From Pirellulales bacterium (GTDB taxonomy: Bacteria; Planctomycetota; Planctomycetia; Pirellulales; JALHPA01), in NCBI GenBank assembly GCA_033762255.1, contig JANRLT010000033.1:1-64000 (forward strand): a DNA stretch of 64,000 nt, given 5' to 3'. The translations under genes were made by a program, and so were the position numbers. A model generated the notes under the pieces. The model ran no database searches, had not been told where the DNA came from, and was given only the letters and a program-made list of their open reading frames with translations. Position 1 is the stretch's first letter. Each line of letters opens with the position of its first letter. Shown here piece after piece: positions 6,804 through 40,310 of the stretch.

Positions 6804-7200
6804 TTGCAAATTACGAATTTTTAAAAGATAGTTTCCGTTGGGTGCCGGGGGCGACGTGCGCAGCACTGCCCCCGATCTAGGCCTAGAAACACTCCATTCG
6901 GACAAATTGTGCGGCTTAACCCGGTTGATGACTATCCCGCATCCCTTGGTGTTAATTCCGTAGTATGTTGTCACTCGATGAGTGTTTCCTTTTAGCAGCA
7001 TTTGCCTGCGCCAACCCGCGCCGGGTAAAATTCTTTGACGCGAAATTTGACTCGGTCGTTTTTTGACCTACGGTTTGAATTGGGTGCGGAATTTCCTGTT
7101 CTGGATCATCCGACTTGGTTGTCCCGGCGCGATAAAACGTACCGTGAACAACACCCAACTTATCTTGTCCGGGGCAGATTACCGCCAAAGGGAGTCAGCC
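6804..7200. other. Intergenic region with one GC-rich double hairpin
   Basis: At 6847-6873 there is a nested palindrome: outer arms GGGGGC and GCCCCC around ACGTGCGCAGCACT, in which GTGC-GCA-GCAC forms an inner stem. It lies 44 bases after the lactonase stop codon and may terminate it, although no T-run follows. An almost identical element occurs at 9381-9406. The rest of the region shows no supported gene; the frame open from 7063 is better started at 7201. Confidence 0.5.
7187..7194 (+). promoter_or_regulatory. Ribosome binding site for the gene at 7201
   Basis: AAAGGGAG ends six bases before the ATG at 7201. It decides that start over the longer frame that opens at 7063. Confidence 0.6.
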
Positions 7201-9309: not shown

Positions 9310-9406
9310 GATTGGTAGGCGAAGCGCGGGAGCGGAGGGGCAGGGGTGCGGAGGGGCGGGGGAGCGGGGGAGCGGGGGGAGGGGGCACGTGCGCAGCACT
9401 GGCCCC
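9310..9406 (+). repeat. G-rich tract and GTGC-GCA-GCAC hairpin
   Basis: From about 9328 to 9386 the plus strand consists largely of runs of four to six G separated by one to three bases (GGGG-C-GGGGG-AGC-GGGGG-AGC-GGGGGG-A-GGGGG), enough for a G-quadruplex. It ends in a nested palindrome at 9381-9406 sharing the core ACGTGCGCAGCACTG with the element at 6847-6873. No gene is supported between 9293 and 9493. Confidence 0.6.
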
Positions 9407-32996: not shown

Positions 32997-33407
32997 CTAC
33001 TCACCAAGAACCGATCCTTTACCACCGCCACCATTGGATTCCCGCATCCGTCGCTCGTGGTGTTTCGTGGCCGCATCATATTTTTCAAATCCAATAAATC
33101 GACCTTCTTGATCATAGTTGTCATGGTTAAAGAGTCTTAGTGATTGACAACAGTAATGAGCCACAGTTTCAGAAAACCCCATAAATTCTGTTTCATAATA
33201 ATCTTCTAAATCTGGATTGGCGGTGAGTTCTGCTGCGGCAAAAGAAGAAAACTGTTTACACACTTCCCACACTTCGTCTCTTGCCTGAGGGGTCATTCCA
33301 AGAGACACGAAATACTTGGCGGCTACAAGTGTATATTCTTTCCCAACCGCGCGCTTACGCCAGCATTCCTTGAGTTCCTCTAAGAGCTGCAATTGGTCGG
33401 TTGTCAT
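32997..33407 (-). CDS. Small acidic protein of unknown function
   Basis: 136 residues from the ATG at 33407, AT-rich relative to most of the window. It is predicted helical and cytoplasmic, with two adjacent cysteines (HYCCQSLRLF) and a Gly-rich tail. No family recognised. Its neighbour at 33730 is also small, AT-rich and immunity-like, so both could be accessory genes acquired together. Confidence 0.6.
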   Translation of the reverse strand: MTTDQLQLLEELKECWRKRAVGKEYTLVAAKYFVSLGMTPQARDEVWEVCKQFSSFAAAELTANPDLEDYYETEFMGFSETVAHYCCQSLRLFNHDNYDQEGRFIGFEKYDAATKHHERRMRESNGGGGKGSVLGE

Positions 33408-33518: not shown

Positions 33519-33691
33519 TAGCGGGTAGCCCAGTTATTCTCAAGGGTACCCAAGGAACTTGTTCCTTGGCCGCGCAGCGGCAAGAAGCATTTCTTCAAAT
33601 TTTTCTGCTACTGTCAGTGGGCTTCTTGTGCTGCGCACACTGGAACAAGTTCCAGTGCTAGCCAATGGGCGATTAGCTGGGCTACCCGCTA
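33519..33691. repeat. 173-bp symmetrical element with inverted, co-varying hairpins
   Basis: Outer arms TAGCGGGTAGCCCAG (33519-33533) and CTGGGCTACCCGCTA (33677-33691) are perfect inverted repeats. Inside, the left half carries CAAGGAAC-TT-GTTCCTTG and GCCGC-GCA-GCGGC followed by AAGAAG. The right half, read in reverse, carries ACTGGAAC-TT-GTTCCAGT and GTGC-GCA-GCAC followed by AAGAAG. The halves therefore share order and loops but differ in stem sequence. It occupies the gap between two small genes. Confidence 0.8.
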
Positions 33692-33729: not shown

Positions 33730-34353
33730 TCATTTTTTTGCATCCGGCTTGTATGCCTCGATCCAATCAAATTTCAAGCCTTTGATGCGGTGTTGCTTGC
33801 AAAGCTTCAGCACTTTAGCCGTGGCCATCCAGCGATGACCCTCACTTAAAAAGAGATCATATTCAGGTAACCTTTCTGGTTGTATGTAAAGTTTTTTACA
33901 ATAGGCAAGGCTAAACACTTGTGGTTTACCATCCAGCGCTGGAGTTCCATCCAATTGAGAATGTTTGTAGTCCAAAACAGGTATGCGATCAGCAGATTTT
34001 ACATCAAAAACATGATAGACACTTAATTGCTGCTTTGAGCGATTGAGTAATATTATCTTATGATTACGATGCGGTTGAATGAATATGTTTGAAGCAACGC
34101 GTTCAACAAATTTATCACTACAACACATGGCAATGCTTTTCTCTGACAATTTGACAATATCCGCGACTTCCGCTAGCTCCTTTGGTTCGAAATCACCGGG
34201 ACGATAGGGAATGGTGGCAAAGATTTTCCCTGTATAGCCATTTTCCCACTCCATAGCGTCGATATTCTTAAAATTCTCATCCACCGGACCCAAGGCCCAG
34301 CTATGGAGCGAGAATTCCAGCTTGTAAATCCCATGTTTTTCCTCGGCGGACAT
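33730..34353 (-). CDS. Immunity-like protein (possible Imm43/DUF1629 relative)
   Basis: 207 residues from the ATG at 34353, with AAGGAAG at 34359-34365 fixing that start over a GTG at 34410. AT-rich, cytoplasmic. The C-terminal part (YDLFLSEGHRWMATAKVLK...RIKGLKFDWIEAY) resembles the end of DUF1629/Imm43 proteins, in which a 'lfvse...GlkF' pattern closes the domain. This is a recall-level resemblance only. No polymorphic toxin gene is adjacent. Confidence 0.6.
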   Translation of the reverse strand: MSAEEKHGIYKLEFSLHSWALGPVDENFKNIDAMEWENGYTGKIFATIPYRPGDFEPKELAEVADIVKLSEKSIAMCCSDKFVERVASNIFIQPHRNHKIILLNRSKQQLSVYHVFDVKSADRIPVLDYKHSQLDGTPALDGKPQVFSLAYCKKLYIQPERLPEYDLFLSEGHRWMATAKVLKLCKQHRIKGLKFDWIEAYKPDAKK

Positions 34354-34468
34354 GTGGACTTCCTTCAAGGCATATTGTGAAAAATGTTCAGTCTGGTCAT
34401 TGCCGCTCACAAAAATAGTGAATCCTGATGCTCTGTTTTGGTTTAGGAGGAAGGCTCGGAAACTTACT

Positions 34469-34498
34469 CCAGTGTCCGTAGCACTAGCAGCCCACTGG
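34469..34498. repeat. Degenerate GTAG/CACTGG palindrome
   Basis: CCAGTG (34469-34474) and CACTGG (34493-34498) flank TCCGTAGCACTAGCAGCC. It resembles half of the 33519-33691 element and lies about 115 bases upstream of the immunity-like gene. Confidence 0.4.
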
Positions 34499-34633: not shown

Positions 34634-34707
34634 TGGGCGCAACAGGGCTCGAACCTGTGACCTCGACGGTGTGAGCATCGCGCTCTAACCAACTGAGCTA
34701 TGCGCCC
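34634..34707 (-). tRNA. tRNA-Val (CAC)
   Basis: 74 bases that fold as a full cloverleaf: acceptor GGGCGCA/TGCGCCC, D arm GCTC...GAGC, anticodon stem CGATG/CGTCG with one U-G pair, loop CTCACAC (anticodon CAC), T arm ACAGG-TTCGAGC-CCTGT and discriminator A. CCA is not encoded. Confidence 0.95.
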
Positions 34708-40293: not shown

Positions 40294-40310
40294 GTGCCAA
40301 TGCTTGGCAC
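40294..40310. repeat. Perfect short hairpin with TGC/GCA loop
   Basis: GTGCCAA-TGC-TTGGCAC, seven paired bases around a three-base loop, between the lipoprotein and the LEPR-XLL gene. Read on the other strand the loop is GCA, like the hairpins at 6856, 9390 and 33570. Confidence 0.55.

Follow-up and report, generated by a model that had tools for sequence, protein, structure and literature searches.

What kind of element has two halves that share one layout, face each other and carry different stems, and why should the stems differ? The question is posed by positions 33519-33691 of the window, by which we mean the whole 64,000-nucleotide stretch of Pirellulales DNA analyzed here. An earlier note had described a 173-bp symmetrical element whose halves are laid out alike with different stems, and both its extent and its layout are confirmed at exactly these coordinates. 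The element lies within a 322-bp gap between two minus-strand ORFs, one of which (32997-33407, 136 aa, no Pfam match) has the element upstream of its start, while the other (about 33730-34410, 226 aa) encodes an Imm11-like immunity protein (Pfam PF07791) whose stop codon is 38 bp away. We consider it very likely that the element is a REPIN, that is, a non-autonomous miniature element of two REPs facing each other, with the RAYT encoded at C35:11624-12142 as the likely mover and with halves that differ so that each REP stays foldable.

Half A (33544-33587, plus strand) faces half B (33622-33663, minus strand) across a 34-nt spacer (33588-33621). From its outer end, half A comprises the foot GGGTAC (33544-33549), hairpin 1, CCAAGGAAC-TT-GTTCCTTGG (33550-33569), hairpin 2, CCGC-GCA-GCGG (33570-33580), which abuts hairpin 1, and the tail CAAGAAG (33581-33587). 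Read on the minus strand, half B has the foot GGCTAG (33658-33663), hairpin 1, CACTGGAAC-TT-GTTCCAGTG (33638-33657), hairpin 2, TGC-GCA-GCA (33629-33637), and again the tail CAAGAAG (33622-33628). These limits come from a rule parse and a covariance model (for the half B tail from the model, for the spacer from a dimer parse), joined by covariation for the hairpins of half A and by direct inspection for its foot, which occupies the site of the GTAG guide in known REPs and corresponds to GGGTGG or GGGTAG in relatives. The element thus consists of two inverted REP units with the feet outward and a short spacer between them. Beyond the halves lie the outer arms, TAGCGGGTAGCCCAGTTATTC (33519-33539, plus strand) and its inverted partner TAGCGGGTAGCCCAGCTAATC (33671-33691, minus strand), located by an inverted-arm search and a comparison of copies; the arms, TAGCGGGTAGCCCAG...CTGGGCTACCCGCTA, are 21 nt long and 90% complementary.

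Folding the element as single-stranded DNA gives -51.9 kcal/mol against a shuffle mean of -29.5 kcal/mol (z -6.7), with 0 of 200 shuffles folding as well. A strong fold near the end of a gene would also suit an intrinsic terminator or a structured non-coding RNA of the adjacent gene that does not move. However, an Rfam scan of the window returned tRNA only, leaving the element without any family above the gathering score; no terminator-like site was found at the element; and tens of unlinked copies stand beside unrelated genes, in association with a RAYT. We regard a terminator or non-coding RNA as extremely improbable.

The search for further copies was fruitful. A whole-element DNA search of the 5.47-Mb genome lists 71 matches, some of which repeat the same copies as partial or reverse-strand hits; the covariance model lists 77 REPs, and a local search of fetched regions yields 29 pairs in which half A faces half B. 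The copies are dispersed and mostly intergenic; 7 of the 29 pairs overlap an ORF call of at least 130 aa, and several of those ORFs are doubtful. The 18 dimers of this genome that were parsed with the covariance model have spacers of 33-35 nt. Feet in this genome are mostly GGGTAC in half A, where the last base departs from GTAG/GTGG, and GGCTAG, GGGTGG or GGATAG in half B. A DNA search across 56 relatives found the element in its own genome only, an exact-pattern scan of named genomes for the half A core gave no match, and a search of 19 other genomes with joined flanks found no empty site, nor any match to the flanks.

Comparison of these copies bears on the outer arms, which had been described as part of both halves. 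This is true of the window copy, but GCGGGTAGCCCAG arms occur in only part of the family: the 13-mer has 13 occurrences in the genome, clear arms are present on both sides of the window, C1 and C60 copies, and degenerate arms are found elsewhere. The arm accompanies the A side of most copies, is less common on the B side, and is absent from the dimers of other genomes. Because the arms are uneven among copies and are no feature of other genomes' dimers, the conserved unit is the 120-bp core at 33544-33663, with the arms excluded. From its resemblance to the foot and first stem bases of a RAYT-side REP (GGGTACCCCAG), the arm GGGTAGCCCAG may be a truncated REP. The inverted arms of 15-21 nt in the window, C1 and C60 copies would fit a MITE of a DDE transposon, bounded by terminal inverted repeats TAGCGGGTAGCCCAG and target duplications, and the earlier note had entertained a MITE. 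We think this very unlikely, given that most copies, and the other genomes, have no arms or an arm on one side only, that the window copy shows no target duplication, and that the conserved part is a REP dimer. Target-site duplications are not expected of a Y1/HUH transposase, and their absence is no argument against mobility.

A proposed link from the element to isolated GCA-loop hairpins at 6856, 9390 and 40294 finds no support: the covariance model misses all three with its filters off. The hairpins at 6856 and 9390 have in common the 15-mer ACGTGCGCAGCACTG (6854-6868 and 9387-9401), which lies inside G-rich/C-rich hairpins 2.5 kb apart and, allowing up to one mismatch, occurs nowhere else in the genome, and the flanks at 40294 are unrelated.

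If the element is a REPIN, a RAYT flanked by the same REPs should be at hand, and the genome holds one. Among ten Y1 transposase matches, only C35:11624-12142, on a contig other than that of the window, is adjoined by REPs of the window-element family: two upstream (plus strand) and one downstream (minus strand), all of the half A variant with a CCCAGG stem, and with no half B beside the gene. The 173-aa product matches Pfam Y1_Tnp (PF01797) and NCBIfam REP_Tyr_transpos (NF047646, 106.8 bits against a cut-off of 80), scores below the cut-off of the IS200/IS605 model NF033573, matches TnpAREP 4er8 weakly, and carries the motifs HVH, WQ and YMHQNP. By its Y1 HUH domain and REP-associated signature, the C35 gene is a RAYT, which would cleave single-stranded REPs. 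The window element is probably moved by this kind of single-strand transposase, encoded elsewhere in the same genome; the separate contig, the variant REP stem and the missing half B at C35 weigh against this. A fragment at C20:68903-68992, just before the REP at C20:69036-69082, matches the last 30 residues of the RAYT with 80% identity and is probably what remains of a second copy, now decayed. Other Y1 genes of the genome (L014, L016, L019 and L023) are flanked by different hairpins of their own, such as GTAG-tggcgact-TTT-agtcgcca at L023, which indicates that several REP or IS200-like systems coexist here.

RAYTs 45-60% identical to that of C35 occur in seven other genomes of the order, and the REPs in their flanks keep the layout while differing, with compensation, in their stems. 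The rule parse describes these units by a 6-nt foot (GGGTGG, GGGTAG or similar), a hairpin 1 of 7-13 bp, a hairpin 2 of 3-4 bp that follows without a gap and has a 3-5-nt loop, often GCA, and a tail CAAGARG or CAAGAAA. The REP grammar is a GGGTRS foot, hairpin 1, an abutting hairpin 2 with a GCA loop, and a CAAGARG tail. In 19 sequences, a set chosen partly by structure, 99.6% of cells are paired compared with 31-46% in slid controls. Two-sided changes affect 10 of 13 pairs and 74 cells, the latter against 24 for shuffles and 1-18 for slid controls; larger, model-derived sets agree, and such sets lean toward the model. The covariance model built from the 19 sequences scores half A at 64.3 bits (E = 5e-14) and recovers half B, which was left out of training, at 47.7 bits (E = 7e-10). 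REP stems change by compensation, and the element is neither unique in its genome nor lacking in structural conservation, which together would have refuted the earlier description.

This grammar is associated exclusively with one RAYT clade. At 39 loci examined with the covariance model, REPs were found at 8/8 clade RAYTs versus 0/31 other Y1 loci, and in a tree the eight clade RAYTs form one side of a branch with modest support (85/63). An independent set, obtained by a protein-only scan of named genomes, has REPs at both close relatives and, among the matches listed, at 0/78 more distant ones; these at least two further close relatives belong to an uncultured Planctomycetaceae MAG and a bacterial MAG. 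At the genome level, all eight clade-RAYT genomes carry 9-111 REPs, whereas 8 of the 49 others carry at least seven (Fisher p = 8e-6). The latter eight (G013, G016, G030, G041, G050, G051, G054 and G055) hold 7-41 double-hairpin REPs and no detected clade RAYT, indicating that REPs can outlive or lack a RAYT; the clade RAYT may have been lost or missed in them. G016 has GGTTAG as its foot and, in most cases, CAGGAAG as its tail. The note's suggestion of a REPIN, with two REP-like units in opposite orientation, is upheld by the copy number, by a RAYT that has these REPs around it, and by the fact that every related RAYT tested has REPs of this grammar at its flanks.

A REPIN family may also have ceased to move, leaving the element as a bystander that perhaps shapes mRNA ends and often lies just past a stop codon. 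Many copies are degenerate, the window copy starts 38 bp past a stop codon, and tandem and convergent gaps predominate (12 and 9, respectively, of the 26 copies with both neighbors called), as such a fossil would have it. However, the half A core scores the same 64.3 bits at eight places on different contigs, which makes recent spread likely; the C35 RAYT retains an open frame, with perfect REPs nearest to it; and the stems are kept by compensation. We therefore judge a fossil repeat unlikely and return to a REPIN that is probably mobile.

Why, then, do the halves of a REPIN differ? Our dimer set comprised 50 fetched stretches of 11 other genomes plus regions of the own genome, 12 genomes in total, in which close pairs were foot outward in 69 cases, in the opposite order in 5 and in tandem in 4. 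Hairpin 2, with its 4-nt arm, differs between the halves in 68/69 dimers; it is alike in 1/69 compared with 23.6 expected from random pairing within genomes, a contrast to be read with the fact that the 69 dimers are not independent but include same-genome copies of few ancestors, representing about 12 or more independent families. The outer stem, hairpin 1, is common to both halves in 11/69. Different stems look like a rule of this RAYT/REP clade. With DNA parameters, the gain from folding back across the spacer averages -6.6 kcal/mol in native dimers and about -38 kcal/mol in homodimers made of one half twice; since homodimers fold back better by construction, these figures give an effect size rather than proof of selection.

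The different stems most likely serve to keep each REP foldable and to avoid long palindromes. In single-stranded DNA, for example at a replication fork, each REP would fold as its own double hairpin, and the RAYT, an HUH/Y1 enzyme, would read the foot and hairpin context on one strand only, cut near the REP and spread the dimer. Two identical inverted REPs would instead collapse into one long perfect hairpin, which would mask each REP and draw in nucleases that cut palindromes. This would be why the stems of the halves differ, those of hairpin 2 most of all, a difference that would keep each REP foldable.

Within the REPIN reading, the cause could instead be a code in which stem types mark left and right ends that a RAYT dimer tells apart, much as IS200/IS605 elements have different left and right ends, so that heterotypy would serve catalysis rather than palindrome avoidance. 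That hairpin 2 differs in all but one dimer, even where hairpin 1 is alike, would be expected of such a code, as would the recurrence across genomes of half-A-like (TCGC/TTGC) and half-B-like (TGCC/CGGC/CGCC) types of hairpin 2. The halves nonetheless share foot, loop and tail, and stems are swapped wholesale between genomes, which argues that there is no fixed end sequence. Moreover, single REPs that flank a RAYT gene at a distance are identical on its two sides at L018 and L187, as expected if only close pairs must differ. We consider a two-ended code somewhat unlikely, and the data, from a small sample, point more to long palindromes being avoided at close range than to two kinds of end being required.

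Earlier work has described REPINs, RAYTs, GTAG feet and heterodimers (PMC3116915, PMC3733652, PMC6006769, PMC8266576). REPINs, described by Bertels and Rainey in 2011 (PMC3116915), and BIMEs likewise consist of two inverted REPs with a short spacer, dispersed between genes (PMC3116915, PMC8266576), and E. coli BIMEs pair different REP types, Y-Z1 or Y-Z2 (PMC8266576). An E. coli REP consists of one stem carrying a bulge, and a group 3 REP of one short stem, whereas the units here are two abutting hairpins with a conserved CAAGARG tail. In the part of the 2013 BMC Genomics study considered here (PMC3733652), GTAG-tagged REPs have a GTAG/GTGG foot, which the feet of relatives here resemble and from which half A of the own genome departs in the last base, and they likewise form foot-outward dimers, with Planctomycetes among their hosts; heterodimers are preferred in many families with no obvious explanation, and escape from SbcCD is suggested. 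The same part of that study describes the GTAG units as single stem-loops and, in Pseudomonas, degenerate REPs adjoined to a second, unrelated stem-loop as well as double palindromic TIRs; in it, we found no paired-hairpin grammar linked to a single RAYT clade. TnpAREP/RAYT subclasses share the HUH, WQ and YxxxNP motifs and REP-flanked genes (PMC6006769), but the motif set here (DHVH/NHVH, WQ, Y[MI]HxNP) fits no single printed subclass cleanly; that study reports several REP subfamilies per gene in nearly half of its RAYT sample and lists short, long, long with bulge, double foot and atypical REP structures. IS200/IS605 elements also depend on a Y1 transposase, and their hairpin ends too are read in single-stranded form, while the units here are inverted and the gene is of the REP-associated type.

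Our literature search, which covered the text of openly readable papers, turned up no description of a planctomycete REP built from two hairpins, and the novelty of this form is provisional. We put forward tentatively, as a possibility that falls a little short of probable, that it represents a distinct planctomycete RAYT/REP system in which the recognition unit is the abutting hairpin pair, foot, loop and tail are fixed, stems change by compensation, and dimers are obligatorily heterotypic in hairpin 2, with a structural rule rather than a sequence under selection. These findings extend RAYT/REP biology, experimentally mainly gammaproteobacterial, to a phylum with a differently built REP. Heterotypy is near absolute across 12 genomes while the identity of the stem sequence is not kept, which makes it testable whether the transposase needs two kinds of end or the cell removes identical pairs as long palindromes.

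Several smaller observations concern the arrangement of copies in the genome. A/B copies 0.2-1.5 kb apart mostly have the same orientation (clusters C39, C45, C53, C46 and C7); integron-like cassette sites were considered on account of copies clustering about 1 kb apart in one orientation, and were set aside, as the element is accounted for by its REP grammar and its association with a RAYT. Four copies at L064, L057 and L076 (C21:333403, C21:336138, C53:15378 and C51:36306) have a common long flank joined directly to half B, with an apparent IS3-type transposase end beyond it at two of the four; the flank may be the remnant of an IS that targets REPs. At L057 (C53:16154-16258), one half B outer arm stands directly behind another, joined at TAGC, as if one copy had inserted into another or the two had recombined. 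With an Imm11-like gene beside the window element and YD-repeat/RHS-like ORFs near certain other copies (C58, C51), REPINs may gather in polymorphic-toxin neighborhoods. In the window itself, a decayed sequence at 34454-34495, between the Imm11 gene and a tRNA at 34634-34707, matches half B weakly (79% over 42 nt).
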